Shown piece by piece: positions 5,890 to 49,281 of a stretch of 64,000 nucleotides of DNA. The DNA is from Bacteroidales bacterium (GTDB lineage Bacteria; Bacteroidota; Bacteroidia; Bacteroidales; UBA932), in contig JAKSJP010000012.1 in NCBI GenBank assembly GCA_024398105.1, positions 1 to 64,000 of the forward strand, given 5' to 3'. The notes below the pieces were generated by a model that ran no database searches, was not told where the DNA came from, and saw only the letters and a list, made by a program, of their open reading frames with translations. Made by a program: the position numbers and the translations under genes. How positions within the stretch are numbered: position 1 is the stretch's first letter; each line of letters opens with the position of its first letter.

Positions 5890-5926
5890 GTGTGATATGA
5901 GTGTTATTATATTTTCTCGTGTAATA

Positions 5927-5963: not shown

Positions 5964-5979
5964 ACAAAATATTATTCAG

Positions 5980-7732: not shown

Positions 7733-7897
7733 ATTGCATTATTCCGCTATTGCGGTGCATTATATTGATTATTTCTGACCTTTTGGGCGTGATATCAATT
7801 TTGTCCTATTTCTTGACTGCATATTTTGAGCCTGAGAGAAATAATAGTCACAATTTTGATAACACTGATTACTAATACTAAAACAAACATATCGGAG
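7733..7897. promoter_or_regulatory. Divergent regulatory region, AraC gene / sugar cluster
   Basis: 165-bp gap between the divergent AraC regulator and aldo/keto reductase genes. It contains a small inverted repeat CCGC-TATT-GCGG (7746-7757) flanked by two GCATTAT-like direct repeats, plausible as a regulator site. No clear -7 box was assigned. Confidence 0.35.
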
Positions 7898-8830
7898 ATG
7901 AAATTCAACAAACTTGGAAATACGGGGTTATCCGTCTCTGAACTTTCGTTCGGAGCTTCTTCACTCGGAGGTGTTTTCCATTCAATCAAGGAGAATGAAG
8001 CAATAGAGGCTGTCTTCACAGCCATCGACTGTGGCATCAATTTCATAGATGTATCTCCTTACTATGGCCATTACAAAGCTGAAACCGTACTCGGCAAGGC
8101 TCTCAAGGACATTCCAAGGGACAAGTATTATCTTTCTACCAAGGTAGGCCGTTATGGAAAGGACGGAGTGAATACCTGGGATTATTCAGCGGCGCGTGCA
8201 AAGGCCAGTGTCTATGAGAGCATGGACCGCCTCAACATCGACCATATCGACATCATCAACGTCCATGACATCGAGTTCGCGGATCTCAGGCAGGTTGCGG
8301 AGGAGACAGTACCAGCGCTCGCAGAGCTCAAGAAGGAGGGTGTCGTAAGCCATGTCGGCATCACTGATCTCCAGCCGGAGAATCTCAAGTGGGTCATCGA
8401 GCATGTCGAGCCAGGCACCATCGAGTCTGTCCTCAACTTCTGCCATTACTCACTCAATGATACATTGCTGACCGAGTACCTCGACTTCTTCGAGGCCAAC
8501 AACATCGGTGTCATCAACGCATCTCCTCTTTCAATGGGTCTTCTTTCTTCAAGAGGCATTCCTGACTGGCATCCTGCACCGAAGCCGCTCGTAGAGGCAT
8601 GTGCAGCAGCTGCCAGGTACTGCACTGACAAGGGCTATCCTATCGAGAAGCTTGCAGTCCAGTTCGCAGTCAGCAACCCTCGCATCGCAGCGACACTCTT
8701 CAGCTCTGCAAATCCTGTGAACGTGAAGAAGAACGTCGAGTTTGTGGAAAGCCCTATCGACTGGGAGCTCGTCAAGGAGGTCCAGGCCGTCATCGGCGAC
8801 CAGATGGGAGTACGTTGGAACAATTCATAA
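7898..8830 (+). CDS. Aldo/keto reductase, L-galactose (L-fucose) dehydrogenase-like
   Basis: NAD(P)-dependent (alpha/beta)8-barrel oxidoreductase. Starting at the ATG at 7898 gives 310 aa beginning with the standard strand MKFNKLGNTGLSVSELSFG. AKR catalytic residues are visible: D51 and Y56 in FIDVSPYYG, K82 in STKVGRYG, H123 in NVHDIEF. The landmarks SPYYG, HDIEF, CHYSLND, ASPLSMGLLSSRG and WHPAP match my memory of plant L-galactose 1-dehydrogenase closely. Bacterial relatives oxidise L-fucose, L-galactose and D-arabinose to their lactones. A FucP-type permease and an L-galactonate-dehydrogenase-like enzyme nearby support an L-galactose role. L-fucose remains the alternative, but no L-fuconate dehydratase is in the window. 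Confidence 0.85.
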   Translation: MKFNKLGNTGLSVSELSFGASSLGGVFHSIKENEAIEAVFTAIDCGINFIDVSPYYGHYKAETVLGKALKDIPRDKYYLSTKVGRYGKDGVNTWDYSAARAKASVYESMDRLNIDHIDIINVHDIEFADLRQVAEETVPALAELKKEGVVSHVGITDLQPENLKWVIEHVEPGTIESVLNFCHYSLNDTLLTEYLDFFEANNIGVINASPLSMGLLSSRGIPDWHPAPKPLVEACAAAARYCTDKGYPIEKLAVQFAVSNPRIAATLFSSANPVNVKKNVEFVESPIDWELVKEVQAVIGDQMGVRWNNS

Positions 8831-8849
8831 ACTTTGAGATCTTTCAGTT

Positions 8850-10097
8850 ATGTCAAAGCAGAACAACAGACTTGCTCTTGGAATAGTATTCTCACTCTTT
8901 TTCCTTTGGGCTATAAGCAGCAATCTTCTTCCGACGATGATCCGTCAGATGATGAAGACCTGTGAACTCAATACTTTCGTTGCATCCTTCACCGAGAGCG
9001 CGTATTGGCTGGCATATTTCATCTGCCCGATTCCGATCGCCATGTTCACCAAGAGATACAACTACAAGGCCGGAATCATCCTTGGCCTTGCTCTTGCTGC
9101 TTTCGGATGCTTCATGTTCTTCCCGGCTTCGGCTGTGAAGTCATACCCGTTCTACCTTGCGATCTTCTTCGTCATCGCAACGGGAATGTGCTTCCTCGAG
9201 ACAGTCGCAAATCCATATGTGACTTCTCTCGGCGATCCTGCCACAGCTCCTAGAAGACTCAACCTAGCGCAGGCATTCAACGGACTCGGCGCATTCATCG
9301 CCGCGATGTTCCTCAGCAAGCTCGTCCTCAGCGGACAGAGCTTCACCAGAGAGACTCTCCCTGCTTCCTACCCGGGTGGCTGGGAAGGATATATCCAGTC
9401 AGAGGCCAATGCGATGAAGCTTCCTTACCTCATCCTTGGTCTCGTACTCCTTGCAGCTGCGGTAGTGTTCGTGCTTACACATATCCCTAAGACCCAGGAC
9501 GAGATCGACCAGAAGGCAGATGAGAAGCTCATCGACTTCAGCGTCCTCAGAAGGTCACATCTCCGCAAGGGTGTGATTGCACAGTTCTTCTACAATGGAG
9601 GACAGACCGCGATCAACAGCCTCTTCCTCGTATATTGCTGCACATATGCAGGCATCGAGGAGTCTACGGCTACCACATTCTTCGGACTCTATATGCTCTG
9701 CTTCCTTGTCGGAAGATGGGTCGGAACCCTCCTTATGGGCAAGTTCCGTCCTCAGGATATGCTTACAGTCTACGCGATTGCGAACATCCTTCTCTGCATC
9801 GTCGTAGTATGCTTCGGAGGAATGGTAGGCCTTTATGCAATGATGGCAATCTCATTCTTCATGTCAATCATGTATCCGACCCAGTTCTCGCTTGCGCTTG
9901 ACGGACTTGGAGAGAAGACAAAGAGCGGATCAGCTTTCCTTGTCATGGCAATCGTCGGCAATGCATGTCTTCCACAGCTGACAGCCTTCGTCATGAACAG
10001 CAATCCGAACATCTACCATATCGCCTACCTGATCCCTATGGTATGCTTTGCAGTATGCGCATATTATGGCTGGAAGGGACATGTGGTAAAGGACTGA
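8850..10097 (+). CDS. MFS sugar permease, FucP (L-fucose:H+ symporter) family
   Basis: Twelve-helix major facilitator of the FucP type, 415 aa. It shows the family's N-terminal FFLWAISSNLLPTMIRQ, the segment MCFLETVANPYVTSLGDP shared by fucose/glucose-galactose permeases, and NLAQAFNGLGAFIAA. E. coli FucP is known to carry L-fucose, L-galactose and D-arabinose, exactly the substrates expected for the dehydrogenase encoded 19 bases upstream. The two genes are surely cotranscribed, and SusC/SusD follow after 54 bases. I infer import of the monosaccharide released in the periplasm. Glucose or galactose transport is the main alternative, since this family includes such members. Confidence 0.85.
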   Translation: MSKQNNRLALGIVFSLFFLWAISSNLLPTMIRQMMKTCELNTFVASFTESAYWLAYFICPIPIAMFTKRYNYKAGIILGLALAAFGCFMFFPASAVKSYPFYLAIFFVIATGMCFLETVANPYVTSLGDPATAPRRLNLAQAFNGLGAFIAAMFLSKLVLSGQSFTRETLPASYPGGWEGYIQSEANAMKLPYLILGLVLLAAAVVFVLTHIPKTQDEIDQKADEKLIDFSVLRRSHLRKGVIAQFFYNGGQTAINSLFLVYCCTYAGIEESTATTFFGLYMLCFLVGRWVGTLLMGKFRPQDMLTVYAIANILLCIVVVCFGGMVGLYAMMAISFFMSIMYPTQFSLALDGLGEKTKSGSAFLVMAIVGNACLPQLTAFVMNSNPNIYHIAYLIPMVCFAVCAYYGWKGHVVKD

Positions 10098-10151
10098 TCC
10101 TGTCTTGAATATGAAATTACATAAATACATTATTATTAACCATTAATCATC

Positions 10152-13100
10152 ATGAGGAAAAATCTTCTATTTTTTGCTATGGCATTCTTAATGGTATGCC
10201 AGACCGCTTTTGCGCAGCAAAGGACTATTTCCGGAGTCGTTACTGATGAGAACAACGAGCCTTTGATGGGTGTCGGTGTAATTCTTCAGGGCAACGCTTC
10301 AGTTGGTACGATTACAGAGCTGGATGGTAAGTATACCCTCTCAGTTCCTGCTAATGGTGCAGTCCTTGAGTTCTCATGCCTTGGTTACACTTCAAAGACT
10401 GTCGCAGTCGCTCAGTCTAATGTAATCAATGTACAGCTTACTTTCGACAACCTCCAGCTCGATGAGACAGTCGTTGTCGGTTACGGTACACACAAGAAGG
10501 AGACCTTGACAGGTTCCATCGTAAGTGTAAAGGGTGACGATATCGCAAAGAGCCCTTCACCAAACGTGGGTTCTTCACTCGAGGGCCGTCTTCCTGGTCT
10601 TATCGTAAACCAGCGTTCTGGCCAGCCAGGTAAGGATGATCCAAGCATCCAGGTCCGTGGTTTCGGTACATTCGGTAACTCTTCACCTCTTTACATCATC
10701 GACGGTGTAGAGCGTAGCGACATGACCCGTCTCAACCCAGATGATATCGAGAGCATCACCGTCCTCAAGGACGCTTCTGCAGCGATCTACGGTGCACGTG
10801 CGGCTAACGGTGTAATCCTCGTTACCACAAAGAAGGGTCAGGAAGGCCAGACAAGATTCTCAGTTGACTTCAGCACCTCATTCTCAAGACCTACCAAGGT
10901 CCCTGAGATGCTTGATGCTGCTACATATGCTGAGGTTTACAATGAAGGTGACTGGGACAGAAAGGGCAGACCTGAGAACTACAATCCTATCATCCCTCTC
11001 TCAGACATCGAGAAGTACAGGAATGGTTCAGATCCAGTCCTCTATCCTAACACAGACTGGCTCGCTGAGACTCTCCGTCCATTCTCACTCTCTACACGTA
11101 CAAGCTTCCAGGCAGCTGGTGGTACCAAGAACGTACGTTACCTCCTCTCATTCGGTGCAAGAACCCAGGGTCCAGGTTACGTGAACATGGACGAGGAATA
11201 CAACCAGTATACCTTCCGTTCAAACGTTGAGGTTGACTTCAGCAAGAACCTCACAGTCGGTGCAAACATCAGTGCAATCATCAGCGACGAGACTCACTCT
11301 AACATCGCTAATGTCACAAACTTCACCAACATCCTTATCGCTGACCCAAGACTCGTAGCAGTATATCCTAACGGACTTATCGCTCCAGGTCGTCTTGGTG
11401 AGAACCCTCTCCTCATCAACCAGAGAGGTTATGACAAGACTTGGAAGTCTCCTGTATATTCTACATTCACAGCTACTTACAAGATTCCATGGGTGAAGGG
11501 CCTCAAGCTTGATGCTTCATTCAACTATGACTTCTCAAATACCAAGAACAAGGTATTCAAGCTCCCTTACCAGTACCATGAGTACAACGTCGTAACAGGT
11601 GAGTACGATCTCAAGCAGGGTACAGGTCAGAAGACTGTAGAGCTTACTGATACATATTCAAACCGTACCAATGTGCTTTACAACTTCCGTATCTCTTATG
11701 ACAGAACCTTCGGCGAGCACCATGTAGCAGCTATGCTCGGTCAGGAGCAGCAGATCGTTTCTAACTCTAGCGTCAATGCCTGGAGACAGAACTTCATCTC
11801 TACTACAATCGACGAGCTCAACGTAGGTAGCAACGCAGCTGAGGACAAGAACAACGGTGGTAGCTCTTCAAAGACTTCACGTAACAACTACTTCGGCCGT
11901 GTAAACTACGACTACAACTCTAAGTACCTCTTCGAGGGTATCTTCAGATATGACGGTTCTTACAAGTTCCCTAAGACAAGCCGCTACGGTTTCTTCCCTG
12001 CAGCTTCACTCGGATGGCGTATCTCTGAGGAGCCTTTCATCAAGGACAATGTAGATTTCATCAATCAGCTCAAGCTCCGTGCATCTCTCGGTCAGACCGG
12101 TAACGATGCAGTTTCAGCTGACCAGTGGATGCAGGCTTACTCATTCAGCGGTAACCATGTATTCGGAACATCTACAAACTCAGGTATGACTCCTGGTACC
12201 ATGCCTAACCCTAACATCACATGGGAGAAGAGTACAAAGTACGACCTCGGTGTTGATGCTACTCTCTGGAACGGTCTTCTCGGTGCCGAGATCACAGTCT
12301 TCAAGGAGCACAGAACAGACATTCTTACCAAGAGAAATCTCTCTATCCCTCAGACCTTCGGTTTCTCAGCTCTTCCTAACGAGAACATCGGTGAGGTTGA
12401 GAACCATGGTTTCGAGATTGTCCTCACACACCGCAACAAGGTCGGTGACTTCAACTACAGCCTCTCAGGTAACATCTCTTACGCTAAGAACAGCATCATC
12501 TTCATGGATGAGACTCCTAACGTAGAGGAGTACCAGAACCAGACCGGTCACCCTGTAAACGCAGGTCTTTACTACAAGGCAGACGGTATCTTCCACACTC
12601 AGGCAGAACTTGACGCTTATCCTCACCACAAGAACACACATGTCGGTGACCCTAAGATCATTGACCTCAACGACGACGGTGTAATCGATTCTAACGACCG
12701 TTACCGTTTCGACTACACTTCTACTCCTAGAACTGTATTCGGACTCAACTTCTCGCTCAGTTATAAGAACTTCGACCTCAGCGGTCTCATCCAGGGTCAG
12801 ACAGACGCTTACAACTACGACAGCGACTTCACACACATCGGTGTTTCAGACTATAGCAACGGTTTCGTAGCACGTGCCAAGGATCGTTGGACTGTTGACA
12901 ATCCAAACGGTACCATGCCAAGAGCGGACAGCTACACTCCAGGTAACTCTACATTCTTCCTCTATGACGCTACATTCATCCGTCTCAAGAGCCTCGAGTT
13001 GGGTTACTCAATCCCTAAGTCTTTCATGAACAAGATCGGTCTTGACTCATGCAGATTCTATGTAAGCGGCTTCAACCTCCTTACCTGGGCTAAGGAAATC

Positions 13101-13187
13101 AAGTGGTGTGACCCTGAGCTCAGCGGCTCTTCACTCTACTATCCTCAGCAGCGTGTGATCAACCTTGGTGTAAGAGTTCAGTTCTAA
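10152..13187 (+). CDS. SusC-like TonB-dependent outer-membrane glycan receptor
   Basis: Outer-membrane beta-barrel transporter of the SusC/RagA family, 1011 aa. In order: signal peptide ending at AFAQ, a carboxypeptidase-regulatory-like domain (ISGVVTDENNEPLMGVGV, about residues 24-100), the plug beginning with the TonB-box region DETVVVGYGTHKKETLTGS, the conserved SGQPGKDDPSIQVRGFGTFGN and AAIYGARAANGVILVTTKKG, then the barrel ending in an aromatic Phe (VRVQF). It works with the SusD-like lipoprotein encoded 19 bases downstream to bind and import oligosaccharides. Codons here and in susD look strongly biased towards a narrow set, suggesting high expression. The glycan is not readable directly; context suggests a pectin- or L-galactose-containing polymer. 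Confidence 0.95.
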   Translation: MRKNLLFFAMAFLMVCQTAFAQQRTISGVVTDENNEPLMGVGVILQGNASVGTITELDGKYTLSVPANGAVLEFSCLGYTSKTVAVAQSNVINVQLTFDNLQLDETVVVGYGTHKKETLTGSIVSVKGDDIAKSPSPNVGSSLEGRLPGLIVNQRSGQPGKDDPSIQVRGFGTFGNSSPLYIIDGVERSDMTRLNPDDIESITVLKDASAAIYGARAANGVILVTTKKGQEGQTRFSVDFSTSFSRPTKVPEMLDAATYAEVYNEGDWDRKGRPENYNPIIPLSDIEKYRNGSDPVLYPNTDWLAETLRPFSLSTRTSFQAAGGTKNVRYLLSFGARTQGPGYVNMDEEYNQYTFRSNVEVDFSKNLTVGANISAIISDETHSNIANVTNFTNILIADPRLVAVYPNGLIAPGRLGENPLLINQRGYDKTWKSPVYSTFTATYKIPWVKGLKLDASFNYDFSNTKNKVFKLPYQYHEYNVVTGEYDLKQGTGQKTVELTDTYSNRTNVLYNFRISYDRTFGEHHVAAMLGQEQQIVSNSSVNAWRQNFISTTIDELNVGSNAAEDKNNGGSSSKTSRNNYFGRVNYDYNSKYLFEGIFRYDGSYKFPKTSRYGFFPAASLGWRISEEPFIKDNVDFINQLKLRASLGQTGNDAVSADQWMQAYSFSGNHVFGTSTNSGMTPGTMPNPNITWEKSTKYDLGVDATLWNGLLGAEITVFKEHRTDILTKRNLSIPQTFGFSALPNENIGEVENHGFEIVLTHRNKVGDFNYSLSGNISYAKNSIIFMDETPNVEEYQNQTGHPVNAGLYYKADGIFHTQAELDAYPHHKNTHVGDPKIIDLNDDGVIDSNDRYRFDYTSTPRTVFGLNFSLSYKNFDLSGLIQGQTDAYNYDSDFTHIGVSDYSNGFVARAKDRWTVDNPNGTMPRADSYTPGNSTFFLYDATFIRLKSLELGYSIPKSFMNKIGLDSCRFYVSGFNLLTWAKEIKWCDPELSGSSLYYPQQRVINLGVRVQF

Positions 13188-13206
13188 TTTTTTATCAGAC
13201 AAGAAT

Positions 13207-14898
13207 ATGAAAAAGATATTTGCAATCATTATTTCAGTCCTTGCGTTATCGTCTTGCAGCGACAAGATCCTCGATATCGTACCAAAGGATAAGATTTCCG
13301 ATTCTGCAGTATGGAGCGACCCAGGTTTGATCAGAGCTTATCATACATCACTCTATAATGCAATTCCTCATGGATTCACAATCGATTTCATGGGTAAGAC
13401 AACCGACGAGATCACAACAGTGAACTCAGGTAGCTCACCAACCATCGCAAGAGGTACTCTTACTCCTGACAACGTCAGCAATGTAGCTTCTACACAGTGG
13501 CATGGTGGCTGCGGTCTCAACATCTGGGAGCGTTCATACCAGTATATCTATAGAATCAACTTCTTCCTCGAGCAGATGGCAACAACTTCTGTACAGATGG
13601 AAGACAAGGACAAGCTTGTCGCTGAGGCTAGATTCCTCCGTGCATGGATCTATTTCTGCCTCATCGAGCGTTATGCTGACGTTCCTCTCGTAACTGAGAC
13701 ATTCGAGCTCGGTTCAGACCATACTTTCTCTCTCACTCCATTCGAGGAGATCGAGTCTTTCATCGAGAAGGAGATTGCTGACGTAATGCCACTTCTTCCT
13801 AAGACTATCGCAACAACTGATTCTAACTTCGGTCGTGCAACACAGGCTGTCTGCCAGGCTCTCCTCAGCAGAATGTACCTTTACGCTGCATCTCCTCTCT
13901 TCAATGAGAAGAACGACAGATCAAGGTGGACCAAGGCTTACGATGCAACCAAGAAGTTCATCGAGACTTACACAGAGTACTCTCTCTATCCTAGCTACCG
14001 TGAGCTCTTCAACCAGCCTAGCGGTTCAGCTAACAGCGAGATCATCTATGCTCAGAACTTCACTTCTACCAGCAGCCATCAGTTCCCAATCAACAACATC
14101 GGCCGTCGTTACGGTGGTTACGGTGGATGGTGGGGCAGCGCCGGCGTAGCTATGGAGCTTGTCAACGACTATGACATGGCTAACGGTGAGCCTGCTTTCA
14201 TCTGGAACGGCAACGAGAAGTCAATCAACCCTAAGGCAGGTTATGATCCTCAGAACCCATATGCAAACAGAGACCCACGTCTTGCTGCAACAGTTCTTTA
14301 CCAGGGTTCAGTATTCCACGGCAACGTATTCGAGGCTTGGATCGCTGAGGATGGTGAGACATGGGGCTACGACCACTACAAGCAGTCAGGTGATAACCCT
14401 ACTTCAGGTATGCAGATCAGAAAGTTCATGCCAGAGGAGCAGGAACTTAACTGGCAGGAGAAGTACACCAACCCTTGGATCTTCTTCCGTCTGGGTGAGA
14501 TCTACCTCAACATGGCTGAGGCTGCATTCGAGACAGGTAATGAGCCTGAGTGCCGCGAGTACATCAACAAGGTACGTGCACGTGCAGGCATGCCAGGTCT
14601 TGGCGATGATGTAACAGGCGAGGCTCTTAGAGCACGTCTCTACAACGAGCGTCGTATCGAGCTCGTATTCGAGGATCATCGTTACTTCGACGTTCGTCGT
14701 TGGAAGATCGCTGATGACGTACTCAACCGCAAGGGTCACGGTATCAAGATCATCAAGAAGGCTGACGGTACTCTCGAGTACTCAGAGGAGCAGATCTGGG
14801 ATAGAGCATTCGATCCTAAGATGTATCTCCTTCCTATCCAAACTCAGGAGATCCTCAAGAACAATGGAACTCTCCAGCAGACAAGAACTTGGAGATAG
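13207..14898 (+). CDS. SusD/RagB family outer-membrane glycan-binding lipoprotein
   Basis: Surface lipoprotein partner of SusC, 563 aa. The lipoprotein signal is short (MKKIFAIIISVLALSSCSDK, Cys17). SusD landmarks are AVWSDPGLIRAYHTSLYNAI near residue 38, the TPR-like helices with EARFLRAWIYFCLIERYADVPL, YLNMAEAAFETG with VRARAGMPGL, and the C-terminal NERRIELVFEDHRYFDVRRWK. It forms the lid over the SusC barrel. A perfect 12-bp-stem hairpin follows the stop (14918-14945), probably ending most transcripts here. Confidence 0.95.
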   Translation: MKKIFAIIISVLALSSCSDKILDIVPKDKISDSAVWSDPGLIRAYHTSLYNAIPHGFTIDFMGKTTDEITTVNSGSSPTIARGTLTPDNVSNVASTQWHGGCGLNIWERSYQYIYRINFFLEQMATTSVQMEDKDKLVAEARFLRAWIYFCLIERYADVPLVTETFELGSDHTFSLTPFEEIESFIEKEIADVMPLLPKTIATTDSNFGRATQAVCQALLSRMYLYAASPLFNEKNDRSRWTKAYDATKKFIETYTEYSLYPSYRELFNQPSGSANSEIIYAQNFTSTSSHQFPINNIGRRYGGYGGWWGSAGVAMELVNDYDMANGEPAFIWNGNEKSINPKAGYDPQNPYANRDPRLAATVLYQGSVFHGNVFEAWIAEDGETWGYDHYKQSGDNPTSGMQIRKFMPEEQELNWQEKYTNPWIFFRLGEIYLNMAEAAFETGNEPECREYINKVRARAGMPGLGDDVTGEALRARLYNERRIELVFEDHRYFDVRRWKIADDVLNRKGHGIKIIKKADGTLEYSEEQIWDRAFDPKMYLLPIQTQEILKNNGTLQQTRTWR

Positions 14899-14917
14899 TC
14901 TATAATTAGTTTTCATC

Positions 14918-14945
14918 GTGCTGTGGCTGGCAACAGCCACAGCAC
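14918..14945 (+). terminator. Intrinsic terminator or attenuator after susD
   Basis: Perfect hairpin: GTGCTGTGGCTG (14918-14929), GCAA loop, CAGCCACAGCAC (14934-14945), followed by TTTATTTT. It ends only 12 bases before the dehydrogenase ATG at 14958, leaving no room for a downstream promoter, so it probably acts as a partial terminator that lowers expression of the next gene relative to susCD. Confidence 0.85.
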
Positions 14946-14957
14946 TTTATTTTAGTT

Positions 14958-15950
14958 ATGAAAGCAGTTCAGATAACAGAACCCGGAAAGGTATCAGTAG
15001 TGGATATCCCTTATGTCGAGCCATCAGAGAACGAGGTTCAGATCAAGTTGTGCTATGTAGGTTTCTGCGGAAGCGACCTCAGCACTTTCAGGGGTGGAAA
15101 CGCTATGGTCAAGTATCCTCGAATCCCAGGTCACGAGATCGGTGCAGTCGTTGAGAAAATCGGCAGTGCCGTGCCTTCTGGCCGTTTCGAGATCGGACAG
15201 GTAGTAACCGTCAATCCTTATACGAATTGCGGACATTGCGCATCTTGCCGCAGAGGCAGGGTCAACGCATGTGAGAACAATGAGACTCTTGGCGTACAGC
15301 GTGATGGCGCCATGCGTGAGTATATCAATCTCCCTTGGGAGAAGCTCATCCCTTGCGGAAGCGTTTCCCTCAGGGATTCAGCTCTCATCGAGCCTATGAG
15401 CGTGGGCTTCCATGCTGTATCGCGCGGACAGGTTACAGCTGATGACGTTGTGATGGTCATCGGATGTGGCATGGTCGGTCTCGGTGCCGTGGCAGGAGCT
15501 CTCAGAAGAGGTGCGACAGTCATCGCGGCTGACCTTGACGACGAGAAGCTTGAGATTGCGCGTTCTCTTGGTGTACAGCATACCTACAACACTTCTACCG
15601 AGTGGGCAGGTCTCCCAGATCCAGATGTAGTGATCGAGGCAGTCGGTGCTGTGCCTACATACCGCCTTGCGGTCGAAAGAGTCGCTTTCACCGGCAGGAT
15701 CGTCTGCATCGGCTATGCGAAGACAGATGTCCCTCTTCCTACCAATCTCTTCGTAAAGAAGGAGCTCGACGTAAGAGGAACCCGCAATGCGGATCCTGTT
15801 GACTTCGAGAATGTGATCGAGTATATCAGCGGACATCCTGTAGAGCAGTTCATCTCTAAGGAGATCGTCCCTGAGGAGGCTCAGGAGACCATGGATGCAT
15901 GGTCTGCCAATCCAGGAGGATATTTCAGGATCCTTACCCGTTTCGAGTAG
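14958..15950 (+). CDS. Zinc-dependent MDR dehydrogenase, L-galactonate 5-dehydrogenase-like
   Basis: Medium-chain alcohol dehydrogenase, 330 aa. Catalytic zinc ligands: C37 (GFCGSD), H59/E60 (PGHEIG) and E145 (ALIEP). The structural zinc site has four cysteines, C91, C94, C97 and C105. The NAD loop is GCGMVG (169-174). The patterns GVQRDGAMREY, ALIEPMSVGFHAVSRG and KKELDVRGTRNADPVDF resemble E. coli LgoD/YjjN, which oxidises L-galactonate to D-tagaturonate. That product is the substrate of UxaB, encoded 3 kb downstream, so the context supports this reaction. Other polyol or aldonate substrates cannot be excluded. The gene converges on uxaA across a long hairpin. Confidence 0.8.
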   Translation: MKAVQITEPGKVSVVDIPYVEPSENEVQIKLCYVGFCGSDLSTFRGGNAMVKYPRIPGHEIGAVVEKIGSAVPSGRFEIGQVVTVNPYTNCGHCASCRRGRVNACENNETLGVQRDGAMREYINLPWEKLIPCGSVSLRDSALIEPMSVGFHAVSRGQVTADDVVMVIGCGMVGLGAVAGALRRGATVIAADLDDEKLEIARSLGVQHTYNTSTEWAGLPDPDVVIEAVGAVPTYRLAVERVAFTGRIVCIGYAKTDVPLPTNLFVKKELDVRGTRNADPVDFENVIEYISGHPVEQFISKEIVPEEAQETMDAWSANPGGYFRILTRFE

Positions 15951-15966
15951 GAAAGAAATAGACATA

Positions 15967-16044
15967 AAAGCCGGAAGGCATCTGAATACAGGGCGACATT
16001 TTCCCAAGTTCCTTGGAGCCCTGTGTCAGATGCCTTCCGGCTTT
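15967..16044. terminator. Long bidirectional terminator hairpin
   Basis: Stem of about 27 bp with one bulge: 15967-15994 begins AAAGCCGGAAGGCATCTGA and pairs with 16018-16044, which ends in TCAGATGCCTTCCGGCTTT. A smaller hairpin (CCAAG/CTTGG) sits in the loop. It has A-rich and T-rich outer flanks, so it can stop both the plus-strand dehydrogenase transcript and the minus-strand uxaA transcript. Confidence 0.9.
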
Positions 16045-16072
16045 CTCTCTATGTCTTAGATCTCAACGGCGT

Positions 16073-17566
16073 CTAAAGAGTCACGCCTGTCTTGAAGATG
16101 GCGATTTCGCGCCATTCGTTCTTCTCGTTGTTTACTTCCTCGCCGCTTGCCACGCTGAGAACGTAGTCGATGAAACGGCTGGATACGGTCTCCATAGGCT
16201 CGTCCTCTGCCAGTACCCCTGCATTGAAGTCAATCCAGTTTGGCTTGGAGCTGGCAAGCCTTGAATTGGTGCTGATCTTCATTGTCGGAACAAAACTTCC
16301 GAACGGAGTACCACGGCCTGTGGTGAAGAGTACCATCTGGCATCCGGAAGCCGCGAGAGCCGTCGAAGCCACGAGGTCGTTTCCTGGTGCGCTCAGAAGG
16401 TTAAGTCCTTTTGTGTCAATTCTCTGTCCGTAGCCAAGAACGTCTCTTACCAGGCTCTTTCCGCACTTCTGCGTGCAGCCCAGGGACTTCTCCTCGAGAG
16501 TGGAGATGCCACCTGCCTTGTTGCCCGGAGAAGGGTTCTCATAGACAGGCTGGTCGTTCTTCATGAAGTATGACTTGAAGTCATTGATCAGGCTTACTGT
16601 CTTGTCGAAAGTCTTCTCGTCCTGGCATCTGTTCATAAGAATCGTCTCCGCTCCGAACATCTCCGGCACCTCGGTCAGGACAGTCGTTCCGCCCTGAGCC
16701 ACAATCCAGTCTGAGAATACACCCAGAAGAGGGTTCGCGGTGATTCCGCTGAGTCCGTCAGAGCCGCCGCACTTGAGTCCGACTTTCAGCTCAGAGACAG
16801 GAATCTCGGTCCTTTCGTCCTTTGAACATACATCGAAGATCTCGCGCATCTTCTCCAGTCCGACAGCGATCTCGTCACCGTCTATCTTCTGGACCTCGAT
16901 GCTCTTGACCCTTGTCTCGTCTACCTGGCCGAGAAGCTCCTTGAATGCGCTGAGCTGGTTGTTCTCACAGCCGAGGGATACGATCAGTACTCCGCCTGCA
17001 TTCGGATGATGCACCATGTCCGCGAGGACGTTACGGGTGTTCTGATGGTCGTCTCCAAGCTGCGAGCATCCATAGTTGTGCGGGAATGCCACGATTGCGT
17101 CCACGGACCCCATCTTCCCTGCCACCTCCTTGTTGAAACGCTTGGCGATGGTCTCGGCGATTCCGTTGACACAGCCCACGGTAGGGATGACCCACATCTG
17201 GTTCCTGATGCCGACGTTGCCGCTGCTGCGGCGGAAGCCACGGAAGGTACGCTGGACCATGGTACCATGATCCTCGGCCTGGGCCGCGTCCACCGGTTCG
17301 TAACGGTAGTCGAGCAGACCCTCGAGGTTTGTCTTTATGCACTGGTGGTCTATCCTGCTTCCTTCGGCGATCTCGCGTGTCACGTGGCCGATAGGAAAGC
17401 CGTACTTGATCACATTGCTGCCTTCTGGCATCGATGTCAGAGCGATCTTGTGCCCGGCAGGGATGTCTTCAATAAGTGTCGTGCCGTAGACGACCTCGCC
17501 CTTCTGCAGGTCAGTGAGTGCTACGGCTACGTTGTCTGAAGGGTTGATCCTGATGAACTTAGCCAT
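16073..17566 (-). CDS. uxaA: Altronate dehydratase
   Basis: Converts D-altronate to 2-keto-3-deoxy-D-gluconate (KDG) in the hexuronate pathway; it is an iron- or manganese-dependent cytoplasmic enzyme. The 497-aa protein has the N-terminal SAF domain (FIRINPSDNVAVALTDLQKG through about residue 85) and the long C-terminal dehydratase domain with VGIRNQMWVIPTVGCVNG, HNYGCSQLGDDHQNT, GLKCGGSDGLSGITANP and TTGRGTPFGS. Conserved cysteines in PTVGCV, NYGCSQ and LKCGGSD are candidate metal ligands. It lies 10 bases after uxaC on the same strand. D-altronate comes from the divergently encoded UxaB. Confidence 0.95.
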   Translation of the reverse strand: MAKFIRINPSDNVAVALTDLQKGEVVYGTTLIEDIPAGHKIALTSMPEGSNVIKYGFPIGHVTREIAEGSRIDHQCIKTNLEGLLDYRYEPVDAAQAEDHGTMVQRTFRGFRRSSGNVGIRNQMWVIPTVGCVNGIAETIAKRFNKEVAGKMGSVDAIVAFPHNYGCSQLGDDHQNTRNVLADMVHHPNAGGVLIVSLGCENNQLSAFKELLGQVDETRVKSIEVQKIDGDEIAVGLEKMREIFDVCSKDERTEIPVSELKVGLKCGGSDGLSGITANPLLGVFSDWIVAQGGTTVLTEVPEMFGAETILMNRCQDEKTFDKTVSLINDFKSYFMKNDQPVYENPSPGNKAGGISTLEEKSLGCTQKCGKSLVRDVLGYGQRIDTKGLNLLSAPGNDLVASTALAASGCQMVLFTTGRGTPFGSFVPTMKISTNSRLASSKPNWIDFNAGVLAEDEPMETVSSRFIDYVLSVASGEEVNNEKNEWREIAIFKTGVTL

Positions 17567-17576
17567 CTTTCAAATC

Positions 17577-18980
17577 TTAGAAATTGAAATAGTTCTTTGC
17601 GTTGTAGTATGAGATGTCCTTGACCATCTGGCTGATTCTCTCCATCTCGCCCGAAGGAAGCTTACCGTTCTCGATATCAGCTCCGATCAGGTCGCAGAGT
17701 ATACGTCGGAAATATTCGTGACGGGTGTAGCTGACGAAGCTGCGCGAATCGGTGAGCATGCCCACGAAGCGCGGGAGCAGTCCGAGTACAGAAAGTGCGT
17801 TCATCTGCTTGCGCATTCCGTCTTCCTGGTCGAGGAACCACCATCCCGACCCGTACTGCATCTTGCCCGGAATGCTGCCGTCGTTGAAGTTGTAAGCCAT
17901 GGTGATGACTGTCTCGACGTCTTTCGGATTGAGACAGTAGAGTATGGTCTTAGCGAGCTTGCCCTCGCTGTCGAGCCTGTCGAAGAAGCGGTTTCCGGCC
18001 TCGGCGCACTGAAGGTCGAGGATCGAGTCTGTACCTGCGTCAGGTCCGAAGCTTCTCATCAGACTGCTGCGGTTGTTCCTGATCACACCCATGTGGAACT
18101 GCTGAGCCCATCCTGACTCTGCATCCATGACTGCGAGGTCGTGCAATCCGGCGCTGCGGAATTTCTCAAGTTCCTCTGCATCAGGAGCCTGTCCTGACAT
18201 TACCTTGCTGAAGATCGCCTCTATCTCGCTTTCAGTATAGTCGGCGGCGTGGAAAGTGTCGAGTCCGTGGTCCGAGAGCCTGCAGCCCGCCATCTCGAAA
18301 TAGAGGTGGCGTTTCCTCAGGGCCTCGACCATGTCGGAGTATGTCCTGATCTCCATGTCCGCAGCCTCGCCGAGCTTCTCGACATAGTCCTTGTACGCGG
18401 CTGGATTTTCAATCGCTATGGCCTTGTCAGGACGCCATGTAGGCAGCACCTTCGTGCCGAACGGTTCCTCGGCGATCTTCTTGTGCCAGCGCAGGTCGTC
18501 GACCGGGTCGTCGGTGGTGCAGATGGCCTCCACGTTGAACTTGCGGATAAGTCCTTTCGCGCTGAACCCTGGCTGTGCGAGCATGCTGTTGCATTCCTCG
18601 AAAATCTCCCTGGCGGTGGCAGGGGAGAGGGTCTTTTCGATTCCGAAGGTTCTCATGAGCTCGATGTGGGTCCAATGGTAGAGAGGGTTCCTCATCGTGT
18701 AAGGCACCGTCTCTGCCCACTTCTCGAATTTCTCCCAGGCCGGAGCGTCTCCGGTAACGTACTTCTCTGCTACGCCGTTTGCCCTGAGCGCACGCCACTT
18801 GTAGTGGTCGCCGCTGAGCCAGAGATCGGAGATGTCCCTGAAGCGGATATCCTCCGCTATCTGCTGAGGGTTGAGGTGACAGTGGTAATCAATGATAGGA
18901 AGGCCTTCGGCATTCTCGTGGTAAAGAGATCTCGCTGCCTCGTTGGTGAGCATGAAATCGTCGTGGATGAATCTGGACAT
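17577..18980 (-). CDS. uxaC: Glucuronate/galacturonate isomerase
   Basis: Uronate isomerase of the amidohydrolase superfamily: D-galacturonate to D-tagaturonate and D-glucuronate to D-fructuronate. The 467-aa length is standard. Signatures are FMLTNEAARSLYHENAEGLPIIDYHCHLNP with the metal-binding HxH, AICTTDDPVDDLRWHKKI, HFEMAGCRLSDHG-like text near the middle, and SRSFVSYTRHEYFRRILCDLIG near the end. It is the first gene of a minus-strand pair with uxaA and is transcribed divergently from uxaB. D-tagaturonate is the point where the proposed L-galactose branch would join. Confidence 0.96.
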   Translation of the reverse strand: MSRFIHDDFMLTNEAARSLYHENAEGLPIIDYHCHLNPQQIAEDIRFRDISDLWLSGDHYKWRALRANGVAEKYVTGDAPAWEKFEKWAETVPYTMRNPLYHWTHIELMRTFGIEKTLSPATAREIFEECNSMLAQPGFSAKGLIRKFNVEAICTTDDPVDDLRWHKKIAEEPFGTKVLPTWRPDKAIAIENPAAYKDYVEKLGEAADMEIRTYSDMVEALRKRHLYFEMAGCRLSDHGLDTFHAADYTESEIEAIFSKVMSGQAPDAEELEKFRSAGLHDLAVMDAESGWAQQFHMGVIRNNRSSLMRSFGPDAGTDSILDLQCAEAGNRFFDRLDSEGKLAKTILYCLNPKDVETVITMAYNFNDGSIPGKMQYGSGWWFLDQEDGMRKQMNALSVLGLLPRFVGMLTDSRSFVSYTRHEYFRRILCDLIGADIENGKLPSGEMERISQMVKDISYYNAKNYFNF

Positions 18981-19039
18981 AGTTATCGTAATGCTTTTTT
19001 GTCGTGTGAATGAACAAATCTAATTATTTTTTCGCCGTA

Positions 19040-19059
19040 TTCCGTGTACGAGCACGGAA
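19040..19059. promoter_or_regulatory. Palindromic operator candidate between uxaC and uxaB
   Basis: Perfect inverted repeat TTCCGTG-TACGAG-CACGGAA, centred in the 133-bp gap between divergent uxaC and uxaB. The two-fold symmetry and position suit a dimeric repressor controlling both operons. No cognate regulator is encoded next to it. Confidence 0.6.
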
Positions 19060-19113
19060 AAATTGTTAATTTTGAAGATATTATAAAAATTGTCAATAAT
19101 AACACAGAGAAAT

Positions 19114-20553
19114 ATGGAACAGCTTAACAGAACAACGGCGGCAAGACCGGACAACCGTGTTGAGAAGATAATACAGTTCGGAGAAGGAAACTTCCTCAGG
19201 GCATTCATTGACTGGATCATCTGGAAGACAGACCAGAAGACTGATTTCAATGCTTCTGTAGTCGTCATCCAGCCTATCGACAGGGGACTCGTGGACGTGC
19301 TCAACGAGCAGGAGGGACTCTATCACCTCAACCTTCAGGGTATCGACGAGGGCAAGGCAGTCGACTCAGTGGAGATGATCGACGTGATCAGCCGTGGAAT
19401 CAATCCTTACAGGGATTTCGAGGACTATCTCCGTCTTGCGGAGCAGCCTGAGATCCGTTTCGTGATCTCCAACACGACAGAGGCCGGCATCGCTTTCGAC
19501 CCTGCATGCAAGTTCGAGGACAAGCCTGCGCTCTCATATCCTGGCAAGCTCGTCCAGCTTCTGTACCATCGCTTCGAGACATTCAAGGGCGACATGGGCA
19601 AGGGACTCATCATCTTCCCATGCGAGCTCATCTTCGAGAACGGAAAGCATCTCAAGGAGTGCATCCGTCAGTATATCCAGCTCTGGAACCTCGGCGAGGA
19701 GTTCTCGCAGTGGTTCGAGAACGCCTGCGGAGTCTACAGCACTCTCGTAGACCGTATCGTTCCTGGCTATCCGAAGGATACGGCAGACCAGCTCAAGGAA
19801 AGGACAGGCTTCGACGACAAGCTTCTCGACAAGGCTGAGATCTTCCATCTCTGGGTCATCGAGGCTCCACAGGAGATCGCCGATGAATTCCCTGCAGACA
19901 AGGCCGGACTCCATGTCCTCTTCGTTCCTTCAGAGGCTCCTTACCATGAGCGTAAGGTGACCCTCCTCAACGGTCCTCATACCGTCCTCAGCCCTGTGGG
20001 CTACCTCAGCGGCCTCAACACGGTACGCGAGTGCTGCGAGGACGAGGTCGTAGGAAAGTTCGTCAACAAGGTGATGTACGAGGAACTCATGGAGACCCTC
20101 AATCTTCCTAAGGATGAACTCAGGAAGTTCGCCGACGACGTGAAGGACCGCTTCGTGAACCCATATGTGAAGCACTTCGTGACCAGCATCATGCTCAACT
20201 CGTTCCCTAAGTTCCGCACCCGCGACCTTCCTGGAATCAAGACCTATCTCGAGCGCAAGGGCGAGCTCCCTCAGGGCCTCGTCTTCGGTCTCGCAGCGAT
20301 CGCGACCTACTACAAGGGCGGAAAGAGGGGAGAGGACGAGATCGTTCCTAACGACGATCCTAGGATCATGGCAACCCTCGAGGGCCTGTGGTCTGCCGGA
20401 AACTTCCGTACTGTCGCTGAGGGCGTCCTCGCAGACGAGTTCATCTGGGGCGAGAACCTCAACCTCATCCCTGGCCTTACCGACCTTCTCGAGAAGGACC
20501 TCAGGCTCATCGCCGACAAGGGCATGAAGGCCGCTGTCGCTACAATTCTGTAA
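19114..20553 (+). CDS. uxaB: Tagaturonate reductase (altronate oxidoreductase)
   Basis: NADH-dependent reduction of D-tagaturonate to D-altronate, by a long-chain mannitol-dehydrogenase-family enzyme. The ATG at 19114 gives 479 aa; the upstream in-frame TTG at 19090 would add only eight unconserved residues. The Rossmann start KIIQFGEGNFLRAFIDW is characteristic (G-x-G-x-F-x-R), followed by FVISNTTEAGI, FPCELIFENGKHLKECI and VTLLNGPHTVLSPVGYLSGL, with the catalytic Lys in the ERKVTLLNG region. It starts a run of closely spaced plus-strand genes (uxaB, kdgK, aldolase, exuT). A palindromic operator candidate lies about 55 bases upstream. Confidence 0.95.
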   Translation: MEQLNRTTAARPDNRVEKIIQFGEGNFLRAFIDWIIWKTDQKTDFNASVVVIQPIDRGLVDVLNEQEGLYHLNLQGIDEGKAVDSVEMIDVISRGINPYRDFEDYLRLAEQPEIRFVISNTTEAGIAFDPACKFEDKPALSYPGKLVQLLYHRFETFKGDMGKGLIIFPCELIFENGKHLKECIRQYIQLWNLGEEFSQWFENACGVYSTLVDRIVPGYPKDTADQLKERTGFDDKLLDKAEIFHLWVIEAPQEIADEFPADKAGLHVLFVPSEAPYHERKVTLLNGPHTVLSPVGYLSGLNTVRECCEDEVVGKFVNKVMYEELMETLNLPKDELRKFADDVKDRFVNPYVKHFVTSIMLNSFPKFRTRDLPGIKTYLERKGELPQGLVFGLAAIATYYKGGKRGEDEIVPNDDPRIMATLEGLWSAGNFRTVAEGVLADEFIWGENLNLIPGLTDLLEKDLRLIADKGMKAAVATIL

Positions 20554-20606
20554 ATTGCCCTGGAACAGGGTACCATGAAACCGGAAATAAAGAAAAAGAA
20601 TATAAA

Positions 20607-21632
20607 ATGGCAAAAATCATCACATTCGGAGAAGTAATGCTCCGACTCAGCCCAGAAGGACAGGACCGTTTCGTCCAGTCAGAGGCTCTCCGTATCATCC
20701 CAGGCGGCGGCGAGGCAAATGTCGCTGTCAGCCTTGCAAACTATGGCCATGATGCATATTTCGTGTCAAAGCTCCCTGCCCACGAGATCGGACAGATCGC
20801 TGTGAACGGACTCCGTCGCTATGGAGTGAAGACTGACTATATCACACGTGGCGGTGACAGGATCGGTCTCTATTACTGCGAGACAGGTGCTTCAATGCGC
20901 CCTTCAAAGGTCATCTATGACCGCGCACATTCAGCTATCGCCGAGGCGGATCCTAGGGATTTCGATTTCGACGCTATCATGGAAGGTGCAAGCTGGTTCC
21001 ACTGGTCAGGCATCACTCCTGCCATCTCGGACAAGGCCGCTGAGCTTACAAAGCTCGCATGCCAGGCTGCAAAGCGCCATGGCGTCATCGTGTCTGTGGA
21101 CCTCAACTTCCGCAAGAAGCTCTGGACTTCAGAGAAGGCCATCTCGATCATGCGTCCTCTCATGGAGTATGTGGACGTCTGCATCGGAAACGAGGAGGAT
21201 GCAGAGCTCTGTCTCGGCTTCAAGCCTGAGGCTGACGTAGAAGGCGGCGAGACCAACGCTGCAGGCTACGAGGGAATCTTCCGTCAGATGAAGGAGCAGT
21301 TCGGCTTCAAGTATGTCGTGTCTACCCTCCGCGAGTCATTCTCTGCTACACACAACGGCTGGAAGGCTCTCATCTATGACGGCAATGAGTTCTACCAGAG
21401 CAAGCGCTACGACATCAACCCTATCATCGACAGAGTGGGTGGCGGCGATTCATTCTCAGGCGGTCTCATCCACGGAATGCTCAAGTATCCTGACAACCAG
21501 GGCGCTGCTCTTGAGTTCGCAGTCGCTGCATCGGCGCTCAAGCATACTATCAACGGCGATTTCAACCAGGTAAGCGAGGCAGAGGTACTTGCTCTCGCAG
21601 GTGGAAGTGCAAACGGAAGAGTACAGCGCTAG
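20607..21632 (+). CDS. kdgK: 2-keto-3-deoxygluconate kinase (PfkB family)
   Basis: ATP-dependent phosphorylation of KDG to KDPG. A 341-aa ribokinase/PfkB-fold protein: N-terminal ITFGEVMLRLSPEG, the GGGEANVAVSLANYG sugar-binding motif near residue 33, and the C-terminal PfkB signature with the catalytic Asp in DRVGGGDSFSGGLIHGML. The insertion RSMRPS-like segment (GASMRPSKVIYDR) is typical of KDG kinases. It lies 53 bases after uxaB and 38 before the aldolase, as expected for the same pathway. Confidence 0.93.
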   Translation: MAKIITFGEVMLRLSPEGQDRFVQSEALRIIPGGGEANVAVSLANYGHDAYFVSKLPAHEIGQIAVNGLRRYGVKTDYITRGGDRIGLYYCETGASMRPSKVIYDRAHSAIAEADPRDFDFDAIMEGASWFHWSGITPAISDKAAELTKLACQAAKRHGVIVSVDLNFRKKLWTSEKAISIMRPLMEYVDVCIGNEEDAELCLGFKPEADVEGGETNAAGYEGIFRQMKEQFGFKYVVSTLRESFSATHNGWKALIYDGNEFYQSKRYDINPIIDRVGGGDSFSGGLIHGMLKYPDNQGAALEFAVAASALKHTINGDFNQVSEAEVLALAGGSANGRVQR

Positions 21633-21670
21633 CAGAAGCTGTACGTGTAATTTAATCTGGCATTATCAGT

Positions 21671-22336
21671 ATGGCAAAGTATACTAAGCTCCAGGTCATC
21701 CAGACCATGAAGGAGACCGGAATGGTCCCAGTATTCTATAACGGCGACGTCGAGATCTCGAAGCAGGTCCTCAAGGCTTGCTACGAAGGTGGCGTACGTG
21801 CATTCGAGTTCACAAACCGCGGCGATTTCGCGCAGGAAGTATTCGGCGAGCTCGTCAAGTTCGCAAACAAGGAGCTCCCGGGAATGATCGTGGGAGTCGG
21901 CTCAGTAGTGGATCCTGCGACGGCAGCCCTCTACATCCAGCTCGGTGCGAACTTCGTGGTAGGTCCGCTCTTCAACCCTGCAATCGCCCCGATCTGCAAC
22001 CGCAGGCTCATCCCTTACTGCCCAGGCTGCGGCAGCGTCTCTGAGGTAGGCGCGGCCCAGGAGGCAGGATGCGACCTCTGCAAGGTGTTCCCTGGCGATG
22101 TCCTCGGACCTAAGTTCGTCAAGGGTCTCAGGGCTCCTATGCCATGGAGCCAGATCATGGTGACCGGTGGTGTGAAGCCTGAGAAGGAGAACCTCGCAGG
22201 CTGGTTCGGCGCAGGTGTCACCTGTGTCGGAATGGGATCTAACCTCTTCCCTAAGGACGTGATCGCAGCAGGCGAGTGGTCAAAGATCACCGAACTCTGC
22301 CGCGGAGCGCTTGACATCATCGCAGAAGTGAGATAA
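21671..22336 (+). CDS. eda: KDPG/KHG aldolase
   Basis: Class I aldolase cleaving 2-keto-3-deoxy-6-phosphogluconate to pyruvate and glyceraldehyde 3-phosphate, the last step of the hexuronate route. The 221-aa TIM barrel shows [70 protein letters not shown], and the Schiff-base Lys in [19 protein letters not shown], with VTGGVKPE binding phosphate. Slightly longer than E. coli Eda, as is common in Bacteroidetes. It sits between kdgK and exuT. Confidence 0.94.
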
Positions 22337-22362: not shown

Positions 22363-23808
22363 ATGGATACACAGAAAAAACTGATGACAAACTGGAGATG
22401 GTGGATATGCAGCCTTCTCTTCGTGGCGACTACCGTCAACTATCTTGACAGGCAGGTCTTGTCGCTGACAGCAAAGGAATTCATCTATCCTGACTTCCAC
22501 TGGACCGATGCCAACTATGGTATCATTACCTCATACTTCTCTCTCTTCTATGCGTTCTGTACCCTTTTCGTCGGCAAGTTCGTCGACTGGATCGGCACCA
22601 AGAAGGGATATCTCATCGCTATCGGACTCTGGAGCACAGCAGCATGTCTTCATGCCCTCTGCGGTGTCGCTACCCAGTGGGTCCATGGCTATGAGAGCCT
22701 CGAGGCGATGCGCATGGTCGAGGACGGAACAGCTGCGGCTACAGCCATCGCCAGCACCGGTGTGTGGTTCTTCCTCTGCTGCCGAGCACTTCTCGGACTT
22801 GGAGAGAGCGGAAACTTCCCTGCAGCGATCAAGGTGACTGCAGAGTATTTCCCTAAGAAAGACCGTGCATTCGCTACTTCTATCTTCAACTCAGGTGCGT
22901 CTGTAGGTGCTCTCGTGGCTCCGCTCGTGATCCCGCCGCTTGCAAAGGCATTGGGCTGGGAATGGGCGTTCATCATCATCGGTGCCCTCGGATTCATCTG
23001 GATCGGATTCTTCGTCAAGTGGTATGAGAAGCCGGAAGTCTCAAAGCATGTCAACGAGGCTGAGCTTGAGTACATCCACCAGGACGACGCGGACTTCGTC
23101 GTGGCAGAGGCAAAGCCTGCCCAGGAGAAGTCAGTATCCTTCCTCCGTTGCCTTACATTCAAGCAGACATGGAGCTTCTGCGCCGGCAAGTTCTTCTCTG
23201 ACGGTGTGTGGTGGTTCATGCTTTTCTGGGCTCCTGCATATTTCCAGGATGTCTATGGCTACAAGGCGTCGTCAGGAAAGGGAATGCTCCTTATCATGAC
23301 ACTCTACTTCATCGTGACATTCCTCTCGATCGCTCTCTGCAAGCTTCCGAACTACTTCGTGGACAAGAAGGGCATGGAGATCTACTCAGGCCGTATGCGC
23401 GCGATGTTCCTCATCGCCCTCATTCCGCTCGTAGGACTCCTTGCACAGCCACTCGGCGCTTATTCAGCATGGTGGCCTGCAATCATCATCGGTCTTGTAG
23501 GAGCGGGACATCAGGCATGGTCTGCGAACATCTTCTCGACTATCGGTGACATGTTCCCTAAGAGTGCCGTCGCTACTATCGTAGGTATCGGAACCATGGC
23601 TGGTGGTATCAGCTCATTCCTCATCAACAGACTCTCCGGCAAGTTCTTCGTCTATGCGGAGGGACTCGGCAGCGAGTTCTCGTTCATGGGATTCGAAGGT
23701 AAGCCTGCAGCTTATTTCATCGTCTTCTGCGTGTGTGCAGTCTGCTACCTTCTCGGCTGGACCATCATGAAGGCGCTCGTACCTAAGTACAAGCCAATCG
23801 AAGATTAA
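22363..23808 (+). CDS. exuT: Hexuronate transporter, MFS, ExuT family
   Basis: Inner-membrane H+-coupled permease of the anion:cation symporter branch, which carries D-galacturonate, D-glucuronate and related acids. The 481-aa protein has about twelve hydrophobic segments, the family start RWWICSLLFVATTVNYLDRQVLS, LLGLGESGNFPAAIKVTAEYFPKKDRA and FNSGASVGALVAPLVIP. Its place after uxaB-kdgK-eda (26 bases) fits uptake of the pathway substrate. Its stop overlaps the next start (TAATG at 23806-23810), indicating translational coupling with the NUDIX gene. L-galactonate or tagaturonate uptake would also fit. Confidence 0.92.
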   Translation: MDTQKKLMTNWRWWICSLLFVATTVNYLDRQVLSLTAKEFIYPDFHWTDANYGIITSYFSLFYAFCTLFVGKFVDWIGTKKGYLIAIGLWSTAACLHALCGVATQWVHGYESLEAMRMVEDGTAAATAIASTGVWFFLCCRALLGLGESGNFPAAIKVTAEYFPKKDRAFATSIFNSGASVGALVAPLVIPPLAKALGWEWAFIIIGALGFIWIGFFVKWYEKPEVSKHVNEAELEYIHQDDADFVVAEAKPAQEKSVSFLRCLTFKQTWSFCAGKFFSDGVWWFMLFWAPAYFQDVYGYKASSGKGMLLIMTLYFIVTFLSIALCKLPNYFVDKKGMEIYSGRMRAMFLIALIPLVGLLAQPLGAYSAWWPAIIIGLVGAGHQAWSANIFSTIGDMFPKSAVATIVGIGTMAGGISSFLINRLSGKFFVYAEGLGSEFSFMGFEGKPAAYFIVFCVCAVCYLLGWTIMKALVPKYKPIED

Positions 23809-48047: not shown

Positions 48048-48067
48048 ATCAATGAAAGTTTTTGTGG

Positions 48068-49264: not shown

Positions 49265-49281
49265 TTCATATTCTTCGAAGA

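Follow-up and report, generated by a model that had tools for sequence, protein, structure and literature searches.

Gene content of the locus

The 64,000-nucleotide stretch of DNA analyzed here (hereafter the window) forms the start of contig C4 (JAKSJP010000012.1) in the 2.43-Mb, 92% complete genome of a Bacteroidales bacterium of the lineage UBA932. The genus includes herbivore gut bacteria, and the gene layout of one of its contigs (G020:C116) is that of a contig from yak rumen (L008); the window comes from a gut bacterium whose host was probably a plant-eating animal. Near its beginning, an aldo-keto reductase (AKR), a FucP-type permease, a SusC/SusD pair and a zinc-dependent medium-chain dehydrogenase/reductase (MDR) are encoded in succession, adjacent to genes for hexuronate catabolism (Table 1). 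An earlier interpretation (the sequence-only reading) proposed that these genes oxidize L-galactose through L-galactonate to D-tagaturonate, which then enters the hexuronate pathway. Every gene it named lies where it was said to lie, and all reading frames are open.

Table 1. Features of the predicted L-galactose operon and the adjacent hexuronate genes, in window coordinates
Feature	Positions	Strand	Basis or remark
AraC-family regulator	6872..7732	-	HTH_AraC and HTH_18; divergent from AKR
AraC-AKR intergenic region	7733..7897		Presumed operator and promoter, from position alone
AKR (L-galactose 1-dehydrogenase, predicted)	7898..8830	+	Best PDB match 7lh6
FucP-type major facilitator superfamily (MFS) permease	8850..10097	+	TIGR00885
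SusC-type TonB-dependent outer-membrane transporter	10152..13187	+	Plug and CarbopepD_reg_2
SusD-type surface glycan-binding lipoprotein	13207..14898	+	SusD_RagB, E 2.5e-51
Zinc-dependent MDR (L-galactonate 5-dehydrogenase, predicted)	14958..15950	+	Zinc ligands, NAD-type Asp, operon partners
UxaA, altronate dehydratase	16073..17566	-	GD_AH domains, identity to E. coli UxaA
UxaC, uronate isomerase (D-galacturonate entry)	17577..18980	-	PRK02925
UxaB, tagaturonate reductase	19114..20553	+	PRK03643
PfkB-type kinase, probable 2-keto-3-deoxygluconate (KDG) kinase (KdgK)	20607..21632	+	KDG-kinase models below cut-off
2-keto-3-deoxy-6-phosphogluconate (KDPG) aldolase	21671..22336	+	PRK07114
ExuT-like MFS transporter, probable hexuronate importer	22363..23808	+	TIGR00893 below cut-off

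The five genes from AKR to MDR share one strand, are spaced 19-59 bases apart, and likely form one operon divergent from the AraC-type gene, whose product is likely the local regulator. The listed open reading frame of the AKR begins upstream with a TTG at 7826, and we place its start at the ATG. AraC genes 61-62% identical to that of the window lie beside AKR or GH95 (glycoside hydrolase family 95) genes at loci L120 and L017, and one of 60% identity at L121. No operator common to the AraC-flanked related loci was convincing, and they share no stretch longer than 10 bases.

By sequence, the AKR groups with L-galactose dehydrogenases. Its top five PDB matches all bear that name, with E values from 2e-153 (7lh6) to 9e-78, and the sixth is far weaker (E 4e-30). 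It is identical to 7lh6 at 214 of 310 residues (69%); among the loci compared, Bacteroides ilei has the AKR nearest to 7lh6 (L054, 81%). The function assigned by the sequence-only reading is supported.

The MDR shares its zinc ligands and NAD-type Asp with all 75 other rows of an alignment (LgoD of Escherichia coli and 74 loci, two of which, L098 and L124, represent one gene). It is up to 70% identical to MDRs that adjoin AKR and lactonase genes, the closest being one from the same genus (L097) encoded between the two. The label "LgoD-like" from the sequence-only reading holds at the level of the superfamily and not as orthology with LgoD, which is ruled out by an identity of 29% in the alignment or 33% over 273 residues (blastp). 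The proposed reaction, from L-galactonate to D-tagaturonate, is supported: orthologues of this MDR pair with the AKR and co-occur with it, as described below.

The FucP-type permease exceeds the cut-off of TIGR00885 (336 bits; cut-off 280), fails that of PRK10133 (284 vs 427), and is 40% identical to E. coli FucP (blastp). It is probably the inner-membrane importer of L-galactose.

All enzymes of the predicted tail, from entry at D-tagaturonate onward, are encoded in the window. UxaB (632 bits; cut-off 359) and the aldolase (372; 275) pass their models, and UxaA is 57% identical to its E. coli counterpart (blastp), with the galactarate dehydratase model far under its cut-off (304 vs 731 bits). 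The evidence for KdgK is weaker: its top three NCBIfam models are all KDG kinases, none reaching its cut-off. The suggestion that D-galacturonate uses the same tail is likewise consistent with UxaC, which exceeds its cut-off (639 bits; 387) and is 53% identical to E. coli UxaC, and with the ExuT-like carrier, which scores 183 bits against a cut-off of 395 and is 26% identical to E. coli ExuT (both blastp). UxuB-like and UxuA genes lie elsewhere in the genome, on contig C47.

Orthologous operons and dispersed partner genes

A search of named genomes recovered at least 578 confirmed relatives of the AKR, and the best 80 loci were analyzed for neighbors within 7 kb. A lactonase homologue is found near the AKR in 66 of the 80 loci, an MDR in 64, and both in 64. 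FucP (at least 55% identity) is present in 22, whereas SusC (at least 50%) occurs in 2 and SusD in 1. A frequent gene order is AKR, lactonase, FucP, MDR (e.g., L012, L048 and L083). Thus, as read from these sequences, the AKR and MDR belong to a gut Bacteroidales operon composed of AKR, amidohydrolase, sometimes FucP, and MDR. The window operon is thus a variant that lacks the lactonase and carries SusC/SusD inside.

Some of the AKRs most closely related to that of the window come from a lineage in which a rhaM-type mutarotase follows AKR and FucP, with no lactonase or MDR in the surrounding 7 kb (L009:9989-12591, L010:3564-6171 and L011:9917-12588; identified with Pfam for the L010 copy). It is possible that this mutarotase acts on L-galactose.

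Co-occurrence was assessed in 101 genomes of the genus, including that of the window; 54 fall outside the high-quality class. AKR orthologues, defined by at least 64% identity with weaker matches left out of the counts, are present in 13 of them. The lactonase is found in 12 of these 13 and in 1 of the 88 others, and the same numbers hold for the MDR at 56% identity or more, with eight genomes that have matches of 29-34% left out (Fisher P 1e-13 in both cases, ignoring kinship as do the other P values here). The lone AKR-free genome with these genes, G015, has the lactonase and a fragmentary MDR at the edge of a contig. GH95 proteins of the type described below (48% identity or more over almost the whole length) occur in 10 of 13 and 6 of 88 genomes (P 1e-7), an identity limit set after the list was seen. 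If partial matches are admitted (G003 with AKR; G041, G045 and G017 without), the counts become 11 of 13 and 9 of 88 (P 7e-8).

The sequence-only reading considered the lactonase missing. This is correct for the window's contig, where the lactonase query had no match, but not for the genome, in which a single homologue lies on contig C40 (7154-8056; Amidohydro_2), followed by another FucP-family gene. Its product is 58% identical to the lactonase of Bacteroides xylanisolvens XB1A. Spontaneous hydrolysis of the lactone, which had been offered instead, is therefore unnecessary as the sole option. It may still take place: the description of the Luteolibacter sp. LG18 pathway names no lactonase, and the acid was found as the product of the dehydrogenase there (PMC12632266).

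Similarly, the statement that no L-galactosidase is present applies to the contig, on which a GH95 query found no match, and not to the genome. There, GH95 matches occur on contigs C34 (56% identity), C20 (42%) and C10 (25%). The C34 protein best matches the solved structure 4ufc, with 1041 bits compared to 659 for the next, and its gene runs with an unscanned gene, a GH31 gene and, by eye, a GH3-like gene. The structure 4ufc is that of BACOVA_03438, an alpha-L-galactosidase that releases L-galactose alone from corn xylan and has trace fucoside activity (PMC4491172). For the C20 protein, 2rdy, 7kmq and 4ufc score much alike (568, 558 and 545 bits). The C34 protein has a Thr at the position that contacts C6, which was proposed as a determinant of L-galactose specificity (PMC4491172). 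A Thr-bearing GH95 enzyme is reported to be very specific for L-fucose (PMC8245568), and we do not take this Thr/His position as diagnostic or as proof of specificity.

Relatives of the SusC and SusD genes lie near the AKR elsewhere. SusC is 77% identical in the sister species G081, 63% at L017 and 65% in B. ilei (L054); SusD is 72% identical in G081 and 56% in B. ilei. Among 151 genomes of the genus, the window SusD was matched at E <=1e-100 in its own genome and G081 alone. The order in G081 is AraC (divergent), AKR, SusC, SusD, GH95, GH2, GH31 and an alpha-L-arabinofuranosidase of the B type, with the lactonase and MDR on separate contigs (C4 and C1 of that genome). For its GH95, too, 4ufc ranks first (934 vs 672 bits). 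L017 reads AraC, GH95, AKR and SusC before the contig ends, and L054 reads AraC, rhaM-type mutarotase, SusC, SusD, AKR, lactonase, FucP and MDR.

Other genes of the window were also noted. A gene at window positions 3838-6177 resembles GH43 by eye, with no Pfam match at 1e-5, and its product has a 59% identical copy near the AKR operon of G024 (L122:15579-17606). Farther downstream (25732-30654), a NamZ-type exo-beta-N-acetylmuramidase (29245-30654) lies beside genes for an MFS transporter and for a fusion of DUF4922 with SpoIID.

A predicted L-galactose pathway and its alternatives

The genomes show which families the genes belong to, how they are ordered, where orthologous operons lie and which genes occur together. 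We conclude that the window very likely carries an operon for L-galactose catabolism of the Bacteroidales kind, with a hexuronate tail attached. L-Galactose would be set free from plant glycans by a GH95 alpha-L-galactosidase whose gene lies elsewhere in the genome, and would enter via SusC/SusD (in oligosaccharide form) and the FucP-type permease. The AKR is predicted to oxidize C1 of L-galactose to give L-galactono-lactone, whose ring would be opened by the amidohydrolase-family lactonase of contig C40 or spontaneously. Oxidation at C5 by the MDR would then yield D-tagaturonate, which UxaB would reduce, UxaA dehydrate, KdgK phosphorylate, and the aldolase cleave into pyruvate and glyceraldehyde 3-phosphate. 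D-Galacturonate would join the same tail via the ExuT-like carrier and UxaC.

Several observations weigh against this interpretation. In 16 of the 80 loci the AKR has no lactonase or no MDR nearby. Contig ends account for some of these, but L009-L011, L032, L044 and L055 are also among them, with 10 kb or nearly so visible on each side. The lactonase lies outside the window operon, and its identity to a copy inside such an operon is 55-58%. Solved relatives of the MDR are distant (the best is RspB, E 6e-40), and it passes no NCBIfam cut-off. The GH95 type also occurs in six AKR-free genomes, and the family holds fucosidases as well (PMC8245568). A general enrichment of glycosidases near the AKR was not borne out: in a blastp search against 11 reference enzymes, the density was 2.0 per 100 kb in the inner flanks and 2.9 in the outer. 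Finally, UxaB is found in 6 of the 13 genus genomes with the AKR and in 38 of the 88 without (P = 1), which rules it out as an obligate partner of the AKR. Because UxaB does not co-occur with the AKR, the UxaB tail is one of at least two.

A comparison of the 14 genus genomes with AKR or lactonase reveals the other. UxaB is present in G000, G003, G064, G069, G088 and G094, whereas the tagaturonate epimerase UxaE (PF16257), a family known from other bacteria (by its Pfam name and a Thermotoga control), is present in G001, G008, G015, G020, G036, G065 and G081. No genome has both, G024 (58% complete) has neither, and the UxaE family has no match in the window's genome. UxaB together with UxaA lies near the AKR in 4 of the 80 loci and UxaE in 3, compared to about 0.45 of each expected if every 3-Mb genome held one copy; the three UxaE neighbors are 94-100% identical and perhaps reflect one event. 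Since both UxaB and UxaE act on tagaturonate, the two kinds of neighbor agree on the junction metabolite. We also observed that UxaE recurs in a cluster with a 6-phosphogluconate dehydrogenase-like protein, a LarA-like protein and a PfkB kinase (L010:8641-13614, L188:1265-7484 and L189:3935-9093). These assignments are from Pfam for the L010 copies and by eye for L188 and L189, and the LarA-like protein was recognized by eye, with no Pfam match at 1e-5.

One alternative is that the operon oxidizes L-fucose (6-deoxy-L-galactose) with the aid of FucP and fucosidase-family enzymes, the uxa genes being neighbors by chance. FucP is indeed named for L-fucose, and matches to GH29 and GH95, two families that include alpha-L-fucosidases, occur within 5 kb of AKR genes. 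Compared to the flanks at 5-10 kb, there are 7 vs 0 GH29 and 2 vs 0 GH95 matches, one of the latter just 25% identical; this confinement to the inner flanks (9 vs 0) is a post hoc count. The window's genome (92% complete) gave no hit for PF07881, the family of L-fucose isomerase; this absence is in keeping with the L-galactose reading but also speaks for the alternative, as it leaves L-fucose without its usual isomerase route. On the other side, the AKR falls among L-galactose dehydrogenases, and the kinase step of the tail requires a C6 hydroxyl, which the 6-deoxy acid does not have. No L-fuconate dehydratase was noticed near the operon by eye, no model search having been made. Moreover, the genome's own GH95 resembles an L-galactose-releasing enzyme with trace fucosidase activity, and the homologous dehydrogenase LguA is inactive on L-fucose (PMC12632266). 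We therefore consider oxidation of L-fucose very unlikely. It is also highly improbable that the two dehydrogenases form a bypass for UxaC, in which the AKR would reduce D-galacturonate to L-galactonate and the MDR would pass it on to D-tagaturonate. Reductases of this kind within the AKR superfamily are known from plants (GalUR of garlic) and fungi, and both UxaC and the ExuT-like carrier adjoin the operon. Yet UxaC is present with an open frame, the AKR falls in the L-galactose dehydrogenase group, and the lactonase, useful only where a lactone is formed, accompanies the AKR in 12 of 13 genomes.

If the operon serves L-galactose, there remains the question of which glycan supplies it. Pectin rhamnogalacturonan II (RG-II) carries this sugar, and the adjoining D-galacturonate genes would suit such a source, which the sequence-only reading favored. 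Complex arabinoxylan has at least as much support, from the sister loci and from esterases encoded nearby. The SusC/SusD genes of G081 sit with GH95, GH2, GH31 and arabinofuranosidase genes, and in G094 a GH31 gene comes straight after AKR, lactonase and MDR. On the reverse strand of the window, three esterase genes lie in a row (46866-50490), the middle one of the BD-FAE family (48068-49081) and the outer two putative. In corn fiber, arabinoxylan side chains bear alpha-xylose as well as L-galactose and are attacked jointly by alpha-L-galactosidase, alpha-xylosidase and arabinofuranosidases (PMC7176698). Arabinoxylan side chains thus seem the better candidate and RG-II a rather unlikely one, in a case that is one-sided in that RG-II enzymes were not searched for.

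Given the presence of SusC/SusD within the operon, we tentatively speculate, at somewhat less than even odds, that the pair defines an uptake family dedicated to L-galactose-capped oligosaccharides, most likely side chains of complex arabinoxylan in herbivore guts, with import and oxidation under one regulator. On the same reading, the L-galactose front end would be a portable module that plugs into either of two tagaturonate tails, one with the reductase UxaB and one with the epimerase UxaE. Recalcitrant arabinoxylan side chains, like some other plant glycans, carry L-galactose as a rare residue. The pathway, common among Bacteroidales of the rumen and gut, could mark microbes able to finish such side chains, and the SusC/SusD genes in its operon give an otherwise anonymous uptake system a testable substrate.

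Comparison with known systems

The lactonase of the L-galactose pathway in Phocaeicola vulgatus is presumably BVU_0220. In that species, BVU_0219 and BVU_0222 are reported as the L-galactose and L-galactonate dehydrogenases, respectively, and D-tagaturonate as an intermediate (Hobbs 2014, via PMC12632266). P. vulgatus resembles the window in its two dehydrogenases and in the D-tagaturonate junction with hexuronate catabolism. It differs, as far as the published description allows comparison, in that the window has its lactonase outside the operon, SusC/SusD inside, and the tail adjacent.

The lgu genes of Luteolibacter sp. LG18 encode the same route through L-galactose, L-galactonate, D-tagaturonate, altronate, KDG and KDPG, as established by knock-outs and with the enzymes in purified form. 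One cluster there holds the two dehydrogenase genes, most of those for the tail and a regulator gene in the opposite orientation. LG18 also handles L-glucose, for which it uses the C-4 epimerase LguG. The majority of its enzymes are reported to be only distantly related to BVU_0222 and to the tail enzymes of E. coli, and the legend of its cluster figure lists no SusC/SusD (PMC12632266). The E. coli route (LgoD, UxaB, UxaA, KdgK and Eda) likewise converts L-galactonate to D-tagaturonate and uses the same tail, but begins at L-galactonate with an LgoD that is 29-33% identical to the window MDR. For the sister locus in G081, the closest parallel is PUL-XylL of Bacteroides ovatus, in which the GH95 enzyme BACOVA_03438 and a GH31 alpha-xylosidase act on complex arabinoxylan (PMC4491172). 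The window's genome departs from this arrangement, carrying its GH95 and GH31 genes on contig C34, apart from the operon.

The route implied to be new by the sequence-only reading is thus not a novel pathway, since homologues have been reported for P. vulgatus and LG18 (PMC12632266). A search of the open-licence literature, little of it aimed at SusD, found no earlier report of SusC/SusD inside an L-galactose operon. We conclude that the interpretation is very probably right in its core, and that what the window adds to the known systems is modest: the SusC/SusD variant, the detached lactonase, the link to GH95, and the two exchangeable tails.

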